Below are positions 11,530-43,718 of a DNA stretch of 44,816 nucleotides, piece by piece. The position numbers and the translations under genes were made by a program. Under the pieces are notes generated by a model, which searched no databases, was not told the DNA's origin, and saw nothing but the letters and a program-made list of their open reading frames with translations. Source of the DNA: Arenibacter certesii DSM 19833. GTDB taxonomy: Bacteria > Bacteroidota > Bacteroidia > Flavobacteriales > Flavobacteriaceae. The stretch covers positions 1-44,816 of the forward strand of contig NZ_AUCB01000038.1 of NCBI RefSeq assembly GCF_000429545.1, given 5' to 3'. The stretch's first letter is position 1. Each line of letters begins with the position of its first letter.

Positions 11530-12234
11530 TTATTGTACCAACTCCAATAGTTTGGCAATAGTTTCTTTGTTATTGACGCCTAGACCTTCCTGTTGATGTG
11601 CTAGTTCGCCTCCTTGGTCAAAAACACTTATGATATTGCTATGGGAAAAATCTAATGGAGATATTTTTTTGTAGTTTACGGCTAGCACAGCTGCAAATTC
11701 TCGTGTATTTGCTTCGGAGCCTCTTAGCAATACCCATTTATCAGATTCCATTTTATTCTCTTTAGCAAAAGCGGTCAGGCGCTCAGGGGTATCTGTTTCA
11801 GGGTCGATGCTTACAAGGACTAGGGTTACGTTATCCTTTTTGTCTGCAGGAATCTGCTTTTCAATATTTCGCATGTCGGCGGCCAGTCTAGGACATGCCG
11901 ATTGGCAAGAAGTGTATATCATCACCATAACCACAACGTCTCCATGTAATTCCTTTAGTTCTATTTCCTCATTGTTTTGAGTCGTCCACACGGAGGGTAA
12001 GTTGTAGATGGAAAGATCGGAGATTTCACCATTTAATTTTTCTTTTTCTGCCATTGTGGTTAATTCCATTTTACATACTGCGCAAGTTCCTGGTTTGTCA
12101 TAGGTCTTTTCTCCTTCACAATGCATAGGACATTCATAAATAGCAGTAGCTATCTTATCCTTCTTAGTGAAATCACAGCTAGTAAGTGTGCCAATTAATA
12201 TAAGGAGTAAGCTAATTTTAAAGGTGTTTTTCAT
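11530..12234 (-). CDS. SCO family copper chaperone with extra metal-binding domain
   Basis: 234 residues, a lipoprotein (lipobox LIGTLTSC, C20). Residues ~33-58 form a heavy-metal-binding module (C35-P-M-H-C39, then PGTC51-x2-C54-K-M-E-L) of the type found on copper and zinc efflux proteins. The rest is a SCO1/SenC thioredoxin-fold domain with copper-binding C110-x3-C114 (TSCQSACP) and H198 (DFSHSN). SCO proteins deliver copper or reduce thiols at copper sites, classically CuA of cytochrome oxidase. Here it is the third gene of the nirK operon, one base after the FGE-fold gene, so copper delivery to NirK is the likely job (inference). The N-terminal fusion is uncommon. Confidence 0.9.
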   Translation of the reverse strand: MKNTFKISLLLILIGTLTSCDFTKKDKIATAIYECPMHCEGEKTYDKPGTCAVCKMELTTMAEKEKLNGEISDLSIYNLPSVWTTQNNEEIELKELHGDVVVMVMIYTSCQSACPRLAADMRNIEKQIPADKKDNVTLVLVSIDPETDTPERLTAFAKENKMESDKWVLLRGSEANTREFAAVLAVNYKKISPLDFSHSNIISVFDQGGELAHQQEGLGVNNKETIAKLLELVQ

Positions 12235-12235
12235 C

Positions 12236-13033
12236 TTATCGACTTAGGTGTTTATTATTTTTATTAAGAGGTTCTACACATCTGAATCCTAGATTTCTCA
12301 TAGAATAATTAGCTTTTAAACTACCTCTTAAAGCGTAGCGCATAAATGCAGCATAGTTCATTAGGTCTGTGGCTCCTACAGCGGCACTACCACAAAATAG
12401 ATTACTGTCCTTATCTACATCCTTACGTGATTCGCCAGATATTAAAACAGAATTAAAATCTAAGGTCCATTCCCAGACCAAACCGTGAAGGTCATATATC
12501 CCCCAGTAATTTTTAAAGGTTGAACCAATCTCCTTTTTAAAAGTTTTTGGAGACTCATACCAATCCAGAATCTTCTGGTTATAGCTTTCTTTTCTTCGGG
12601 CGTCTGCCGTGGTTTCATCGGCCATGGCGGCGTATTCCCACTCATCCACAGTGGGCAAGCGTTTACCTTGGCATTCGCAATAATTTTTGGCGGCAAACCA
12701 AGAGATATTTGTTATTGGGGCATTTGGCTGTATGAGATCTCCAAATGAGGTGTCTCCTTCCCAGTTCGCAAGATAACTGCCGTCCGAAAACAAGCGTTTT
12801 ATATTGCTGCGTTGCCATTGAGGGTGTTTTATGACGAAGTTGAGAAATTCTTTATTGGTTACCGGAAATACGTCCATTTTAAAGGAGGTAACGGTGACTG
12901 TAGAAGAATCAATTCCGTAAAGTGGAATATAAGTCCCTCCTTTTACTCCGGCCATTGCATTCTGTTGTGCAGAAGTAGTAAACACAATTATGTTAGATAA
13001 AAGGAAAAATGCCATTTTTAAAGAGGGACACAT
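12236..13033 (-). CDS. nirV: NirV-like FGE-fold protein lacking catalytic cysteines
   Basis: 265 residues with an N-terminal signal peptide (AFFLLSNIIVFTTSAQ). The formylglycine-generating-enzyme (SUMF1) fold is clear: GGTYIPLYG, VFPVTNKEFLNFV, APITNISWFAAKNYCECQGKRLPT, WEYAAMA, GLVWEWTLDF and the C-terminal RNLGFRC. Aligned by eye to human FGE, the two catalytic cysteines (SYCYRYRC) are replaced (NYAAFMRY, residues 226-233), so it should not oxidise sulfatase cysteines. FGE-fold proteins next to nirK are known as NirV and have no settled function. It lies 17 nt after nirK and one base before the SCO gene, clearly one operon. The symbol is by context and family. Confidence 0.82.
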   Translation of the reverse strand: MCPSLKMAFFLLSNIIVFTTSAQQNAMAGVKGGTYIPLYGIDSSTVTVTSFKMDVFPVTNKEFLNFVIKHPQWQRSNIKRLFSDGSYLANWEGDTSFGDLIQPNAPITNISWFAAKNYCECQGKRLPTVDEWEYAAMADETTADARRKESYNQKILDWYESPKTFKKEIGSTFKNYWGIYDLHGLVWEWTLDFNSVLISGESRKDVDKDSNLFCGSAAVGATDLMNYAAFMRYALRGSLKANYSMRNLGFRCVEPLNKNNKHLSR

Positions 13034-13050
13034 ATTATTAATTGGTTAAA

Positions 13051-14520
13051 TTATTTAATTGATTCATTTCTTCTGCTTTTCACCATAGCTGGAGTAACTT
13101 CCTTTTTAGAATTTCCCCAACTATTATAAACGTAGGTCAAAACATTGGCAACCTCTTCATCAGATAGGGTTTGAGCGGTCATTACACTGTTGTAATTCTT
13201 TCCATTCACGGTTATTTCCCCCGTTAACCCGTATAATACGATATCTATGGCGCGGTCAACATCGTCATTTAAATAATCCGAATTTGCTAGAGGAGGGAAT
13301 GCCTCGGCAATACCTTGTCCTTCTCCTAAGTGACAGGCAAAACAGGTCTGCATATAAGTGGCTTTCCCGAATTCCATTTTCTCTGCCATTGATTTGGCTG
13401 GGATTTCGGACTCCGCTACTTCAGTTGTGCTTGGCATGGTTTGGATTCCTGGCCCTTCAGGCAAATAGATGCCTTCTCTTATTTCCCCGGAATAGATCTT
13501 TTTATTTTCTTCTCCTTCTACTTTTAACATTCCAAGAGCTCCTTTGTTAAAAGCCCTGAAAATAGAGTGATCCACAAGAATTAGCGTACCGGGGACATCA
13601 ACTTTAAATTCTACTATGGCAGCCCCACCTGCTGGGATTAGGGTGGTTTGGATATTTTTATTGATCAGGTCGCCGCCTTCTACATATACCTTATCAAAAA
13701 TCTCACCGATTACATGGAATGAAGAAACTAGATTTGGACCACCGTTACCTACGAATAAGCGTACGGTTTCGCCAACATTTGCAGTTATGGCTTTGTCTCC
13801 TGTAAGGGCTCCTACACTTCCATTGAATACCACATAATCTGCGTGTTCGTCTACCGCTTTTTGCATATCAAACGGTTGTAACCCACGCTGTCCATTGGCT
13901 CCTTTGGTATAGAAATCGCCCTGCATAATGTAATACTCTTTATCTACCTTAGGTAAGCCACCTTCTGGCTCCACTAATATAAGGCCGTACATTCCGTTGG
14001 CAATATGCATACCTACGGGTGCTGTAGCGCAATGGTATACGTACAAGCCAGGATTTAAGGTTTTAAAGGAAAACACCTTTTCCCGGCCAGGAGCCACAAA
14101 AGAGGACTCTGCACCTCCACCGGGTCCGGTAACTGCATGTAAATCTATATTATGTGGTAATTTATTATCTGGGTGATTTTTTAAACGGAATTCTACCTCA
14201 TCACCAACCCGAGTTCTAATAAAACTACCAGGAACTGTTCCTCCAAAAGTCCAATATATATAGCGGACACCATTGGTTATTTCACCTTCTTGTTCTAAAA
14301 TCTCCATATCTACGATCAGCTTTTTTGCTTTTCTTTTTCCTACTGGTGTGGGAACATATGGAGGAGAAGTTAATTCCGCGGTCATTTCCTGTATAGCAGG
14401 GATTTCGGATGTATTGGAATATGCTTTTTTATCCTTTTCTGCACAAGAAAAAAGGAGGGTGGCCATGCTGCTAAAAAGCACTGTTCTAAGTACTGCGGTA
14501 TAGGTGATTTTTAACATCAT
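13051..14520 (-). CDS. nirK: Copper nitrite reductase NirK fused to cytochrome c
   Basis: 489 residues. Reduces nitrite to nitric oxide. It is a lipoprotein (ATLLFSC, C26), so anchored outside the cytoplasm. Two cupredoxin domains carry all expected ligands: H123, C164, H172 and M177 for type 1 copper; H128, H163 and H318 for type 2; catalytic D126 and H269. A C-terminal cytochrome c domain follows, with C393-F-A-C-H397 and probable axial M447, likely accepting electrons directly. ATG at 14520 or 14517 both fit. It heads the operon with the FGE-fold and SCO genes. A Crp/Fnr-type palindrome lies upstream (14613-14630). No other denitrification reductase is in the window. Confidence 0.96.
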
Positions 14521-14958: not shown

Positions 14959-16221
14959 TTATTCTTTAGTGGTGAATAAGGTCGGATTGATAGTAAGCAT
15001 TACCCACCCCCAATTATTGGTGTTGCCATCGTAATTTCCTTTTAATGCTTCCATTCCTTCAGAAGGGAATAAATGGGAATAACCGGCGTCCAAGGTAACA
15101 TATTCCTGAATTTTATAGCTATATGTCAAGTCTAGCTCGTTTCCTAATCGTTTTCTGTTCGTGCCGGAAACAGGGGCTTCTGCGGAGAAACTATGTATTG
15201 CAATGCTGAGGTTGTCATTTGCGCCAAGCGCTAATTTTGATTTTAGGTAGATGTCTACCAAGCCGACATTGTTGATGTGGTTGCCCACATAAAAGTAATC
15301 CATATGGCCGTTAAATTTATGGTTGGTACCATAAAGGGGGGTAAAGGCCTTGTTTTTTCCATTCGCCCGAAGACCATTTTTGTTTCCGCTCAGTACTTCG
15401 CCACCAAGACCTACCTGCCACTTATTGGTTATATAATAATTGCCTTCTAAGGCGATAAGAAATGCGTTTAAGTTATTATTGGTGTTATCCTTCCCCATTT
15501 GGTAGAAAAGATTGGAGCTAACACTCCATCCTTCCTCTTGAAATTTTAGGTGGGTGCCCACGGTCTGACTATATCGTGTTTCATTGTTGTTGCTATTTAT
15601 TGGGTCTATAAATTGCTCTCCGTTGTTCGAAAATAAAAGGCTGGCAGAAAACTGTTTCCACGTTTTATTTCCCCAGAGAAACTGTAGGCTCTTATAAGTG
15701 CCGGGGGTTGTTAAGGTGGTCCCGTTAAGGTTTTCTGAATCTTGATTGTATGCGAAGCCCAGATTCATTTTAAAGCCGGTGTTTTGGTATTTTAAAAGTA
15801 ATGCATCGTGACTACGAGCTTGTTGTGCCCATCCTACATTTCCAAATATCCTATGGTCATCATAGCTAATTTCCTGTCTACCTACCCTAAAAGAAATTGC
15901 GTTATTCAAAGATACTTCTCCCCAAGCCTGGTGGATGCCAATTCCGTTTTTATCGGAAATGTTAAGTTGAGGGACATCTCCCCAAACCCTAACATCCTGC
16001 AGGCTTAGGTATAATGTTAAGCCCTCCATTTTATAATCTGCATTTAACCTAGTCCGTTGAGATACAAATAAGGCAGCATCTGCATTATCAGGGAAAAGTG
16101 TTTTAAACCCATGTCTATACTCGGTCCGCGGGCGCAACTGCGTGTCTAAGGTGAATTGTGCATGCCCATTAGAAAATATAAAAAAACACAGGAAGACTTT
16201 AATAAAATGGTGCGGTTTCAT
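14959..16221 (-). CDS. Alginate-export family outer-membrane beta-barrel (porin-like)
   Basis: 420 residues from ATG 16221 (MKPHHFIKVFLCFFIFSNGHAQ), chosen for its signal peptide; the frame stays open to 16311 but adds nothing signal-like. The mature part is rich in alternating aromatic/polar strands, starts with LDTQLRPRTEYRHGF, and has the VGRQEISYDDHRIFGNVGW stretch typical of the alginate_exp (PF13372-like) barrel family. Here the family name need not mean alginate transport. It is co-oriented with nirK, and its upstream palindrome has the same geometry as that of nirK. A role in nitrite or nitrate passage across the outer membrane is possible (inference). Confidence 0.78.
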   Translation of the reverse strand: MKPHHFIKVFLCFFIFSNGHAQFTLDTQLRPRTEYRHGFKTLFPDNADAALFVSQRTRLNADYKMEGLTLYLSLQDVRVWGDVPQLNISDKNGIGIHQAWGEVSLNNAISFRVGRQEISYDDHRIFGNVGWAQQARSHDALLLKYQNTGFKMNLGFAYNQDSENLNGTTLTTPGTYKSLQFLWGNKTWKQFSASLLFSNNGEQFIDPINSNNNETRYSQTVGTHLKFQEEGWSVSSNLFYQMGKDNTNNNLNAFLIALEGNYYITNKWQVGLGGEVLSGNKNGLRANGKNKAFTPLYGTNHKFNGHMDYFYVGNHINNVGLVDIYLKSKLALGANDNLSIAIHSFSAEAPVSGTNRKRLGNELDLTYSYKIQEYVTLDAGYSHLFPSEGMEALKGNYDGNTNNWGWVMLTINPTLFTTKE

Positions 16222-16308
16222 AATCGATACGTAATTAATTGGGTTAAGTTGAGCTAAAAAGCAACCTTTATCTAGCGCTATTTTTGATACGTGACTTGAT
16301 TTGAAATG

Positions 16309-16351
16309 CAAAAATTTAACTTTTTAGATGATAAAACTATGACAATTGTCA
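16309..16351 (-). promoter_or_regulatory. Porin-like gene promoter with FNR/NnrR-like operator
   Basis: A perfect palindrome TGACAATTGTCA (16340-16351) is flanked so that TATGA-N6-TCA is also readable on the plus strand. A -7-like box, AATTTTTG (16316-16309, minus), is centred 33 bp from the palindrome, the same distance as at nirK. No -33 TTG is correctly placed. The similarity suggests the same CRP/FNR-superfamily activator controls both. Confidence 0.55.
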
Positions 16352-17748: not shown

Positions 17749-18375
17749 ATGAAGTCAATTACAATTAAAGGATCAGAAAGAGAAAGCGTGGGCAAAAAAG
17801 CAACAAAAGCCTTGCGTAATGCTGGAAAGGTACCTTGCGTTATTTACGGAGGGGAAAAACCATTACACTTTTCAGCAGATGAACTATCGTTCAAAGATTT
17901 AGTGTACACTCCTAACGCACATACTGTTGTGATTGATTTGGGGAATGGAAAGAAATTTGATGCGATTAAACAAGACATCCAATTTCACCCTGTAACCGAC
18001 AGTATTCTTCATGTCGATTTTTACCAATTGTTCGCAGACAAAGAAGTTTCTATGGATATTCCAGTGAAATTAGTAGGAAATTCTCCTGGTGTGCGTAACG
18101 GTGGTAGATTGTTATTTAGAAAGAGAAAACTTAGTATTAAGGCGCTTCCAGGTGACTTGCCAGATTTCTTCGAAGTAGATATCTCTAAACTGAAGATAGG
18201 ACAGCATATTTCTGTGGATTCTCTTAAAAAGGATGAATTTACTATTCTTCACCCAGATGCTACTGCAGTTGTACAGGTTATGTCTGCACGTAACGTAGTT
18301 ATTGCGGATGAAGAAGATGAAGAAGGAGTAGAAGGAGAAGCTACTGAGGAAGGGGCTGAAGAGGCTGCTAACTAA
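17749..18375 (+). CDS. rplY: 50S ribosomal protein L25 (CTC family)
   Basis: 208 residues, the long two-domain CTC form. N-terminal 5S-rRNA-binding L25 domain ([24 protein letters not shown], then [19 protein letters not shown]), then the TL5-like beta domain ([31 protein letters not shown]). It ends in an acidic Glu/Ala tail typical of Bacteroidota homologues. The pairing with prs upstream and pth downstream is a conserved arrangement. A terminator follows at 18397-18424. Confidence 0.95.
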
Positions 18376-18396
18376 AAGAGCTTATTGAATTATTAT

Positions 18397-18430
18397 AAAA
18401 GCATCTGCGAAAGTAGATGCTTTTGTATTT
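18397..18430 (+). terminator. Terminator after rplY
   Basis: AAAAGCATCT (18397-18406) pairs with AGATGCTTTT (18415-18424), followed by GTATTTTT. It closes the prs-rplY transcript. It also argues against starting pth at the upstream TTG 18385, which would run through this hairpin. Confidence 0.8.
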
Positions 18431-18453
18431 TTATGAATTCCATACATAAGTCT

Positions 18454-19083
18454 ATGTTCCACTATTTAAGAACGCTTTTTAAGGTGAACGGACTACAACT
18501 TGATGAAACTGACGCAATGAAAAAATTTTTAATAGTTGGTCTTGGTAATATTGGTGACGAATATGCAGCAACCAGACATAATATAGGTTTTAAAATATTA
18601 GATGCTTTGGCGGAAAAGGAGGATTTCTCCTTTGAAACCAAAAAATTAGGAGATGTTGGTGTATTTAAAGTAAAGGGGAGGAGTATCATCTGCTTAAAAC
18701 CGTCTACCTATATGAACCGTAGCGGTAAGTCAGTAAAATATTGGATGGAGAAAGAAAATATCCCCTTGGAGAATGTGCTTGTATTGACCGATGATATTCA
18801 TCTTTCCTTTGGTACATTAAGGTTGAAGACAAAAGGCAGTGATGGTGGTCATAATGGACTAAAAGATATCCAGACTTATTTAAACACGACCAATTATAAT
18901 AGGATGAGATTTGGAGTTGGGGCTAATTTTGGTCAAGGTAGTCAAGTGAATTATGTGCTTGGAGAATGGAGCGAAGAGGAAAAAGAAGCACTCAAAGAGC
19001 GGTATGTGAGAACTACAGAATTAGTGCGTTCCTTTGTTCTTGCCGGGGTAAACAGGACTATGAACCTGTTTAATAATACCTAA
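18454..19083 (+). CDS. pth: Peptidyl-tRNA hydrolase
   Basis: Releases tRNA from peptidyl-tRNA that drops off ribosomes. Family motifs: FLIVGLGNIGDEYAATRHNIGF (with the catalytic His), KPSTYMNRSGKSV, DDIHLSFGTLRLKTKGSDGGHNGLK. With ATG 18454 it has 209 residues and a short extension (MFHYLRTLFKVNG) like those I recall on other flavobacterial Pth. The canonical domain starts at ATG 18517 (MKKFLIVGLG), which is the alternative start. The frame stays open to 18385 across the rplY terminator, which I reject as coding. Confidence 0.93.
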   Translation: MFHYLRTLFKVNGLQLDETDAMKKFLIVGLGNIGDEYAATRHNIGFKILDALAEKEDFSFETKKLGDVGVFKVKGRSIICLKPSTYMNRSGKSVKYWMEKENIPLENVLVLTDDIHLSFGTLRLKTKGSDGGHNGLKDIQTYLNTTNYNRMRFGVGANFGQGSQVNYVLGEWSEEEKEALKERYVRTTELVRSFVLAGVNRTMNLFNNT

Positions 19084-24532: not shown

Positions 24533-25867
24533 ATGCTAGATCGATTTCTTTTTACGAAGATCGATAATAGTGCGCTGCTGGTTTTTCGCATGTTTTTTGG
24601 AGTGCTCATTAGCCTCGAATGCTATGGGGCAATCCTCACTGGATGGGTAAAGCGCAATTTAATAAATCCACAGTTTACCTTTTCTTTTATTGGTTTTGAA
24701 TGGTTGCAGCCCTTGCCAGGAGCGGGTATGTATTACTATTTTTTCCTTATGGGTACCTTAGGTGTCTGTATTGCGCTAGGGTATAAATACAGATTTAGCA
24801 TGCTTGCTTTTACTGTCCTGTGGGCGGGCGTGTATCTAATGCAAAAAACGGCCTATAACAACCATTACTATCTGTTGCTGTTATTGTCTGGGATGATGTT
24901 CTTCTTACCAGCGAACAAAAATTACGCCATAGATGCAAGGCTAGATCCCCGTATTAGAGAGAATACTATGTTCGCTTATGTAAAGTGGGTAATTGTACTG
25001 CAACTACTAATTGTGTATACCTACGCAGCTATAGCAAAAATGTATGGGGACTGGTTAGATTTTAGTTTTTTAAAGATTCTCTTTCAAGGAAAGGCCCATT
25101 ACCCCTTGGTAGGCGATCTTTTGCAGTATACTACCTTACACAAGTTTATTGGATTGTCGGGTATTTTGTTCGATTTACTGATAGTACCCGCCCTACTTTG
25201 GAAGCCTACTAGGAAGTGGGCGTTTCTAGCATCAATCTTTTTTCATCTTTTTAATTCTATTGTTTTTCAAATTGGAATCTTCCCATATCTAGCTTTAGCA
25301 TTTACCATATTTTTCTATCCGCCAGAATTGATACGGAGGATATTTCTAAAGAATAAATCGACATTCATAGAAGTCGACTTTCAATCCCCGTCCAATAAAA
25401 AGTGGATTATTGGGCTTATAACGCTCTATTTTTCCGTACAATTAGTGCTTCCTATCAGGCATTATTTTATTGAAGATGATGTGCTATGGACTGAAGAAGG
25501 ACATAGGATGAGCTGGAGAATGATGTTGCGCAGTAGGCAGGGAATAGCAACCTATAAGGTGGTAAGTAAAACCACGGGAGATGTTTATATGGTAGATCTA
25601 GACTCCTATATGACGAAAGCTCAACAGAGGAAAGCGGCGTGTTATCCGGATTTTATTTGGCAATTTGCCCAGCATTTAAAGCGAGAATATAAAGCAAACG
25701 GGGAAGAAGTGTCCGTCTTTGTAGATTCTAGAGTAGGGGTCAATGGAAAACCCTTCCGACCTTTTATAGATCCAAATGTAGATCTAGCCAATGAACGATG
25801 GAATTATTTTTGGCACAACCCATGGATATTGCCTTCTAAAATGAAAGATTTTCCCCTTGAAAAATAG
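24533..25867 (+). CDS. HTTM-domain membrane protein (vitamin K gamma-carboxylase-like)
   Basis: 444 residues with roughly eight membrane segments in the first ~310, including LLVFRMFFGVLISLECYGAI, YYYFFLMGTLGVCIALG and LAFTIFFYPPELI. The layout and the NNHYYLLLLLSGMMFFLP and YTYAAIAKMYGDWL motifs match the HTTM family, related to the membrane domain of vitamin K-dependent gamma-glutamyl carboxylase. The soluble C-terminal part (about 325-444: EGHRMSWRMMLRSRQG, YPDFIWQFAQ, FVDSRVGVNGKP) matches the VKGC-like lumenal domain. Its bacterial substrate is unknown. Almost fused to ribF (2 nt apart), so co-transcribed. Confidence 0.85.
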   Translation: MLDRFLFTKIDNSALLVFRMFFGVLISLECYGAILTGWVKRNLINPQFTFSFIGFEWLQPLPGAGMYYYFFLMGTLGVCIALGYKYRFSMLAFTVLWAGVYLMQKTAYNNHYYLLLLLSGMMFFLPANKNYAIDARLDPRIRENTMFAYVKWVIVLQLLIVYTYAAIAKMYGDWLDFSFLKILFQGKAHYPLVGDLLQYTTLHKFIGLSGILFDLLIVPALLWKPTRKWAFLASIFFHLFNSIVFQIGIFPYLALAFTIFFYPPELIRRIFLKNKSTFIEVDFQSPSNKKWIIGLITLYFSVQLVLPIRHYFIEDDVLWTEEGHRMSWRMMLRSRQGIATYKVVSKTTGDVYMVDLDSYMTKAQQRKAACYPDFIWQFAQHLKREYKANGEEVSVFVDSRVGVNGKPFRPFIDPNVDLANERWNYFWHNPWILPSKMKDFPLEK

Positions 25868-42290: not shown

Positions 42291-43718
42291 TTAATCTACT
42301 CTTCCAACCTCCCTATTTTCTGTTCCCTCCAATTCTAACAGTGAGTCGCCTAGTTTTTGACGCATATTGTTAGCTAGTATTCTTATTTTTTCTACCACCT
42401 CGGGGTATTCTTTAGCTACGTTGTGGGTTTCACTTTTGTCATTTAATACATTATACAGGGCTATCTCTTCCAAATTAATCATTTTGTACTCTCCGGGAAT
42501 TCCGTCTTTTCCTAGTGTTTGACCCTCCATTGTTCTATAGGTGTGTGGGAAGTACATTTTCCACTTCCCATAGCGCACCCCATGTAGCTCATTTACTCTA
42601 TAGTAAAAGAAATAGGCTTCTTGAGGGCTCTCCGTGCTTTCGCCGATAAGTATTGGCCAAACACTTTTTCCGTCTATCGGTAATTTTGGCAACGGGGCTC
42701 CAGTAATTTCCGCTATGGTCGGTAATATATCTATGGCCATGACCGGAGTATCCAAAGTTCTGCCAGGAGTTAGTTTTTTTGGGTACTTTATAATAAATGG
42801 TTCTCGTTGACCGCCTTCCCAAGCGGTTCCTTTTCCTTCGCTAAATGGCAATGCGCTTCCTGCGTGATTGCCATAAGCCAACCATGGGCCGTTGTCTGAG
42901 GTGAATATAACTACGGTGTTATCTTCTAGTCCGTTCTTTTTTAAGGTTGCTAAAATCTGCCCTACAGACCAGTCAATTTCCATAATTACATCGCCATAGT
43001 GTCCGCGTTCCGATTTTCCCTTAAACTTATCGGATACAAATAATGGGACATGGGGTTGCGGATGTGCCACATATAAAAAGAAGGGTTGTTCTTTGTTACT
43101 TTCAATAAAAGCTACACTCCTCTCGGTAATCTGGGTTGTAAGGTCCGATTGGTCTGTTAAGGTATCCAGTATTTTTTCATTTTCGTAAAGAGGTAACGGG
43201 CCAAAATTGAAAACGGAGCCTTGTTGTGGGTGTAAAGGCCACATATCATTGGAGTAGGGGATTCCAAAATAATCATCAAATCCATGATTGTTGGGCATAA
43301 ACTTTTTATCGTCGCCTAAATGCCATTTTCCATACATTGCGGTGCGGTATCCAATGGATTTTAGCATTTTAGCGATGGTAGTTTCCTTGGTATTCAATCC
43401 TGTTTTGGCGTTGGGCATATAGGCATTATGGATGCCGACCCTGTTGGGGTAGCACCCGGTTAGGATTCCGGCTCTGGAAGCCGAGCATACTGCCTGGGCA
43501 ACATAAAAACTAGTTAGTTTAACCCCGTTTAGCGCCATATTATCTAGGTGCGGAGTGGCGATATCTGGCGCTCCAAAAGTCCCCAGATCCTGATATCCTT
43601 GATCATCCGTAAAAATCAAAATTACGTTTGGTGGGGTGTCTTGGATTTTCTTTTCTTTATTTTCGCTACAAGACAATAATAGGAGTATTATGGAGGGGAA
43701 TAGTAGTATTCGGAACAT
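42291..43718 (-). CDS. Lipoprotein sulfatase (S1 family)
   Basis: 475 residues. Lipobox ILLLLSC (C17), then the sulfatase core: NVILIFTDDQGYQDLGTFG (metal site D38, D39) and the formylglycine motif C78-S-A-S-R82 followed by AGILTG, with KWHLGD and the VVIFTSDNGPW metal site. Cys at position 78 would be converted to formylglycine. It acts in the periplasm or at the surface, probably on sulfated polysaccharides, but the substrate is unknown. No sulfatase-activating FGE or radical-SAM maturase is in this window: the FGE-fold protein at 12236-13033 lacks the catalytic cysteines. There is no polysaccharide-utilisation cluster around it. Confidence 0.92.
   Translation of the reverse strand: MFRILLFPSIILLLLSCSENKEKKIQDTPPNVILIFTDDQGYQDLGTFGAPDIATPHLDNMALNGVKLTSFYVAQAVCSASRAGILTGCYPNRVGIHNAYMPNAKTGLNTKETTIAKMLKSIGYRTAMYGKWHLGDDKKFMPNNHGFDDYFGIPYSNDMWPLHPQQGSVFNFGPLPLYENEKILDTLTDQSDLTTQITERSVAFIESNKEQPFFLYVAHPQPHVPLFVSDKFKGKSERGHYGDVIMEIDWSVGQILATLKKNGLEDNTVVIFTSDNGPWLAYGNHAGSALPFSEGKGTAWEGGQREPFIIKYPKKLTPGRTLDTPVMAIDILPTIAEITGAPLPKLPIDGKSVWPILIGESTESPQEAYFFYYRVNELHGVRYGKWKMYFPHTYRTMEGQTLGKDGIPGEYKMINLEEIALYNVLNDKSETHNVAKEYPEVVEKIRILANNMRQKLGDSLLELEGTENREVGRVD

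Follow-up and report, generated by a model that had tools for sequence, protein, structure and literature searches.

The 44,816-nucleotide stretch of Arenibacter certesii DSM 19833 analysed here (contig NZ_AUCB01000038.1, positions 1 to 44,816; the window) contains a compact group of three minus-strand genes (Table 1), which encode a copper nitrite reductase (NirK), a protein of the FGE fold (NirV) and an SCO protein. By triad we mean a nirK, a nirV and an SCO gene lying on the same strand in that order. The original prediction described such a set, with gaps of 17 nt between nirK and nirV and 1 nt between nirV and the SCO gene, and the open reading frame (ORF) coordinates, which together span 11530-14520, bear this spacing out.

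Table 1. The triad and the adjoining barrel gene in the window
Feature	Position	Strand	Description
nirK	13051..14520	-	489 aa; predicted copper nitrite reductase, haem c domain at the C-terminus; all Cu ligands present, CxxCH intact
nirV	12236..13033	-	265 aa; FGE-fold, hydrophobic N-terminus, without FGE cysteine pair, invariant C214
NirK-type SCO, probable lipoprotein	11530..12234	-	234 aa; HMBD head, CxxxCP, distal His198
Alginate_exp-family barrel	14959..16311	-	438 nt upstream of nirK

From its sequence the window NirK is predicted to be a three-domain, haem-c copper nitrite reductase. It scores 355 bits against TIGR02376 (cut-off 296) and has a Cytochrom_C domain at residues 385-466, and in a structure comparison its closest solved relatives are the haem-c-bearing NirKs 2zoo and 3ziy. 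If residue roles may be carried over from the positions of A. faecalis NirK, as we assume, the type 1 (T1) copper ligands H123, C164, H172 and M177, the type 2 (T2) ligands H128, H163 and H318, and the catalytic D126 and H269 are all there, and the haem site C393-C396-H397 (CxxCH) is intact. C26, which is conserved in 87% of 84 rows, closes a lipobox-like LFSC, and this signal suggests a putative lipid anchor.

The NirV protein matches PF03781 with 113 bits. Human FGE has an active-site cysteine pair, Cys336/341, and the pair is absent from NirV, as judged from the alignment and from the common NirV cysteine sets. A different cysteine, C214, is conserved in 109 of 109 NirV rows (108 distinct), and is the sole cysteine of the mature protein in five of them. 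A C214-C252 disulfide was considered as the reason for this conservation and rejected, since C252 is absent in 13 of the 109 rows and five have no second mature cysteine. Two models of NirV were made, of which the first was poor (predicted local distance difference test, pLDDT, 70) and the second is usable except for residues 196-219; the top Foldseek match is SUMF2 (1y4j), at a template modelling score of ~0.5. We regard NirV as a probable FGE-fold pseudo-enzyme. Might it nevertheless be a true FGE-like enzyme that modifies a residue of NirK? We consider this highly improbable: the common NirV cysteine sets hold no pair with FGE spacing, and CxPxR, the FGE target motif, occurs in none of the 117 NirKs.

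The SCO protein matches PF02630 and PF19335 (HMBD), both above the curated cut-off, and has its HMBD head at residues 33-59, CxxxCP at 110-115 and the distal histidine at 198. By PF02630, CxxxC and the distal histidine it is assigned to the SCO1/SenC family, for which copper binding and delivery would be predicted; C110, C114 and H198 are kept in 70 of 70 triad SCOs. For the window, then, the haem c domain of NirK with its intact copper and CxxCH residues, the FGE-fold neighbour and the SCO with a metal-binding head were all correctly foreseen (matches to PF03781, PF02630 and PF19335). As a general trait of the module the head does not hold up, as the full motif is found in only 12 of the 70 triad SCOs; it is a lineage extra. 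The second half of the motif occurs alone in 11 (both counts from regular expressions), and among the 31 triad SCOs scanned with Pfam, HMBD is found in 7 and a CusF copper-binding domain in 1.

Recurrence of the triad

How widely is the arrangement found? Our sample comprised 60 near relatives and 395 phylum genomes, which are not independent because several genera were sampled repeatedly, and 83 NirK loci were collected in addition to the window. At E 1e-60 or better the 395 genomes hold 62 NirK places, and in 48 of these NirV and then an SCO follow on the same strand. The other 14 have neither helper; they are three loci of family f44, ten NirKs with a twin-arginine (Tat) motif, and one place 484 nt from a contig end, for which helper presence cannot be told. 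The near-relative search gave 24 NirK loci (genome G040 is in both sets), with NirV in all 24 and an SCO in 23. When the search was reversed, starting from NirV at E 1e-20 or better, 63 places were found in 62 of the 395 genomes, and in each case a NirK is no more than 0.5 kb away and an SCO follows. These 63 are the 48 beside strong NirK matches and 15 in family f38, whose NirVs adjoin a divergent NirK that was missed at the first NirK threshold. At one locus, L087, a barrel gene sits between NirV and the SCO.

The genome-context search thus finds the nirK/nirV/SCO triad to be recurrent across the phylum sample, and excludes that it is unique to this genome. That the triad is a recurrent, conserved NirK helper module, and its accessory genes a dedicated helper set, is well supported. 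The original prediction had tied such a module to the fused reductase. The recurrence of the triad, the separate grouping of its SCOs (below) and the constant position of NirV by NirK uphold a dedicated NirK module, but the set also serves haem-less NirKs. NirV accompanies haem-fused and unfused NirKs alike, and a role for it at the haem domain is therefore unlikely.

Family f38 (L202-L216) is of interest for its NirK. In all 15 of these divergent triad NirKs a glutamine replaces the T1 axial methionine (M177 in the window), in a loop that reads HTAMGQHG, or once HTSMGQHG, while the other copper ligands are kept. The family appears to be a natural Met-to-Gln NirK clade, and our literature search turned up no paper on a glutamine axial ligand in NirK. 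A cupredoxin-like ORF, recognized by eye, follows the SCO in 14 of the 15 loci (e.g. L202:7375-7761); the one copy searched had no Pfam match at 1e-8. Among close relatives, the nirK of L049 (genome G010, same genus as the window) is split into two pieces that overlap close to where the haem domain begins, possibly through a frameshift or an assembly error.

The triad is also found outside the phylum. When named genomes were scanned with the NirV alignment, the matches listed comprised 80 loci, of which 15 are NirV (39-65% identity); all 15 follow a NirK, and 14 have an SCO next, the exception being Neisseria bergeri. The 14 triads among these matches are from six Flavobacteriia/Flavobacteriales (L123 being the same locus as L057), two Ignavibacteria, one unassigned metagenome-assembled genome (MAG), one Myxococcales MAG and four gammaproteobacteria (a MAG, Lysobacter, Thermomonas and Lysobacterales). 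One Ignavibacteria NirK is nearly identical to L096 of family f31, and so is inside the phylum as drawn here. The remaining 65 of the 80 matches listed have no NirK or SCO above 60 bits in the flanking DNA examined. In Azoarcus KH32C the triad is on a plasmid, and in N. gonorrhoeae NirV lies behind aniA, with no SCO within the 4 kb examined. Among more distant NirKs, 12 neighbourhoods were sampled from 60 listed matches out of 265 records, with a plasmid gene table that is incomplete. Six are alphaproteobacterial nirK-nirV pairs, which are compared below, and six more have neither helper annotated (Deinococcus, Maritalea, Azospirillum, Methylophaga, Haloprofundus and Agrobacterium).

Does the export route of NirK account for the presence of NirV? 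A Tat motif is found in 10 of 14 NirV-less NirKs versus 0 of 103 NirV-linked ones, although the Tat and lipobox calls are from regular expressions and 47 of the 103 matched neither pattern. The NirK tree, with 80 of the 117 rows and 7 of the 10 Tat rows, places the Tat NirKs in one clade, so that the link between Tat and the absence of NirV is a single event; an independent-pairs test shows nothing, and Tat versus Sec was rejected as an explanation.

Copper supply and the roles of the two helpers

The triad SCOs are a separate, NirK-linked group, apart from other SCOs, as judged from two trees. The first has 73 rows, comprising 44 triad SCOs chosen for spread and 29 further SCOs taken from these genomes or from related ones; all 44 fall in one group (support 98/98), and 28 of the 29 others are outside. 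The second, of 50 rows, includes ten SCOs from NirV-less NirK genomes or N. bergeri. It recovers the same group, with 26 triad rows, and none of the ten is inside, some of these added rows and the Azoarcus row being long branches. The profile scores leave a narrow gap (the top-scoring SCO from a genome without NirV has 124 bits, the lowest-scoring triad SCOs 138), and 10 of 14 matches to the window SCO were therefore placed by tree.

The sole non-triad SCO inside the group, in both trees, is L258 of genome G038. This genome has a nirK-nirV operon without an adjacent SCO, and L258, a relocated gene, is the only SCO found in it. At L289:4196-5687, L258 lies 4 nt from a ScdA_N/hemerythrin gene of the RIC-like di-iron repair type, and by eye it has an HMBD-like head.

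Where would the copper of NirK come from? In Neisseria, AccA, of the PCuAC family, delivers copper to AniA, and AccA and other PCuAC proteins are said to be missing from some AniA/NirK bacteria, where perhaps no chaperone is needed (PMC13006917). PCuAC (PF04314) has no match in the window genome, is found in none of the 14 triad genomes from the same family (counting that of the window), and is absent from 30 of 62 NirV genomes; it is present in 9 of 13 NirK genomes without NirV. The NirK-type SCO is a natural candidate for the copper donor in triad genomes that lack PCuAC.

The reading we favour, with somewhat better than even confidence, is that the triad forms a periplasmic maturation module for AniA/haem-c-type NirK, in which the SCO gives copper and the pseudo-enzyme NirV acts on NirK. 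We infer that the module loads copper, and the steps might be as follows. NirK would cross the membrane by Sec and fold outside, as the lack of a Tat motif in the 103 NirV-linked NirKs suggests. The SCO would take up scarce copper, helped in this genus by the HMBD head, and pass it through its CxxxC and histidine to apo-NirK. NirV may hold or shape apo-NirK, for example during trimer formation, the T2 site lying between subunits, with C214 perhaps in brief contact with copper or a thiol. NirV would be the NirK-facing part, because Neisseria has NirV beside aniA without such an SCO and uses the unrelated AccA. The best evidence that NirV and the SCO act in one process is their joint absence in f44, where both are missing from two of four tree rows and from a third locus, L082, outside the tree. 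Tentatively we would go further, though at less than even confidence, and suggest that AccA-less bacteria have in the NirK-type SCO a dedicated copper chaperone of NirK that has gone unrecognised, that a cysteine-dependent NirV receives and fits the copper, and that the unit has spread between phyla.

NirV might instead be a lasting partner of mature NirK, an anchor or stability subunit, with the SCO alone loading copper. NirV comes behind NirK even in loci that have no SCO as a neighbour (Neisseria L121 and L131, alphaproteobacteria L229-L234), and proteins of the FGE fold can be structural, PorK being listed under that fold. The joint loss of NirV and the SCO in f44 argues the other way, and we think a lasting partnership unlikely. 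A different doubt concerns the SCO. Is it a thiol-disulfide reductase, or an NO or redox stress protein that keeps the T1 cysteine or C214 of NirV reduced, rather than a copper donor? AhpC-TSA also matches the window SCO, and the SCO of G038 has the RIC/ScdA-like repair gene as its neighbour. The universal retention of the distal histidine of the copper site among triad SCOs speaks against a reductase, however, and the HMBD heads and the single CusF domain point to copper; we hold this alternative to be quite improbable.

Several observations weigh against a maturation module of NirV and SCO. Support for the triad SCO group is lower (86/50) in the second tree, confidence in the NirV model is low near C214 (pLDDT <50 at 196-219), and 32 of the 62 NirV genomes do carry PCuAC. 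Three haem-fused, non-Tat NirKs (L082, L084 and L086) have neither helper nearby, and the f44 genomes with such NirKs (G143, G412 and G416) have no match to the window SCO, G143 having one distant PF02630 protein. The sampled NirKs of Deinococcus, Azospirillum, Methylophaga and Agrobacterium have Sec-like N-termini with neither helper annotated within 3 kb. PMC4770552 calls NirV not mandatory for maturation. Because the haem-fused f44 NirKs and the sampled Sec-like NirKs do without them, neither helper can be a universal requirement of NirKs, widespread though the triad is.

Acquisition of copper by NirK has so far been known in part, for Neisseria AniA. The NirK-linked SCO group and an FGE pseudo-enzyme with an invariant cysteine are two named candidate helpers that lend themselves to a residue-level test, and the role of NirV becomes directly testable in flavobacteria.

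Surroundings of the locus

In 26 of the 84 loci, nirK has an Alginate_exp-family barrel gene on its own strand at a distance of up to 4 kb. It is possibly a nitrite pore and an optional partner; since it is also found beside two NirV-less, Tat-type NirKs, it may go with nitrite use and not with maturation. As originally predicted, no NO or N2O reductase was found among the window ORFs scanned (26 + 4 + 1; 17749-18375 and 18385-19083 are among the few left out). A nosZ is present elsewhere in the genome, which also has three COX1-family genes, one of which lies ~13 kb away from nosZ and is cbb3-like with a score below the cut-off. The genome gave no second NirK, as the remaining matches to NirK span its cytochrome part only. 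None of the 84 loci has an FNR/CRP-like box upstream of nirK, where shuffling gives a mean of 0.5, and a promoter and terminator scan gave results near chance. The window also carries a homologue of vitamin K-dependent gamma-carboxylase (24533-25867; HTTM and lumenal domain) and, ~29 kb from NirK, a sulfatase-family gene (42291-43718).

Relation to known systems

The pairing of nirK and nirV is already known, as is the unsettled function of NirV; what is new is that the triad SCOs form a group apart and that NirV has an invariant cysteine. The nirV gene is present in ~61% of the NirK genomes of PMC4770552, Bacteroidetes included, its position beside nirK is noted (PMC10356946, PMC13086519), and a review states that the copper centre may need the nirV product in order to be inserted correctly (PMC8139620). 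Gonococcal NGO1277 (NirV) is listed as induced 6.6-7-fold anaerobically and aniA 28-fold (PMC3032703). The relevant passages of PMC8756737 and PMC3475470 treat SCO/SenC with other enzymes and hold no NirK-SCO unit, and in the open-access literature, which leaves subscription papers uncovered, we found no description of an SCO as the third member of a nirK-nirV set.

The six sampled alphaproteobacterial NirKs (31-36% identity) resemble the window in having an FGE-family gene directly behind nirK in every case. These distant NirVs are only 19-22% identical to the window NirV, but all six have a cysteine (C214-G) that aligns with its C214; Y87 and W91 are missing. Unlike the window, these NirKs have a Tat-like N-terminus and no SCO annotated within 3 kb (6 of 6). 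The idea that NirV works in the compartment in which NirK folds, and so would be cytosolic for these Tat-exported NirKs, was rejected, as all six NirVs have hydrophobic N-termini. The solved three-domain haem-c NirKs, which we take to be those of Ralstonia pickettii and Pseudoalteromonas haloplanktis, have the domain order and the copper and haem ligands of the window NirK, which for its part has a lipobox-like signal and sits in a triad.

The AccA-AniA system of Neisseria likewise has an AniA-type NirK as client, and aniA is followed there by a NirV 44% identical to that of the window. AccA, however, is a PCuAC protein unrelated to SCO, a family for which the window genome gave no match, and the single SCO match in N. 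bergeri falls outside the NirK-type group. With the SCO1/SenC proteins of cytochrome oxidase the window SCO has PF02630, CxxxCP and the distal histidine in common, but it belongs to a NirK-linked group of its own in the trees. NirV shares the fold of SUMF2 and FGE but lacks the FGE cysteine pair; C214 is kept in the NirVs examined.
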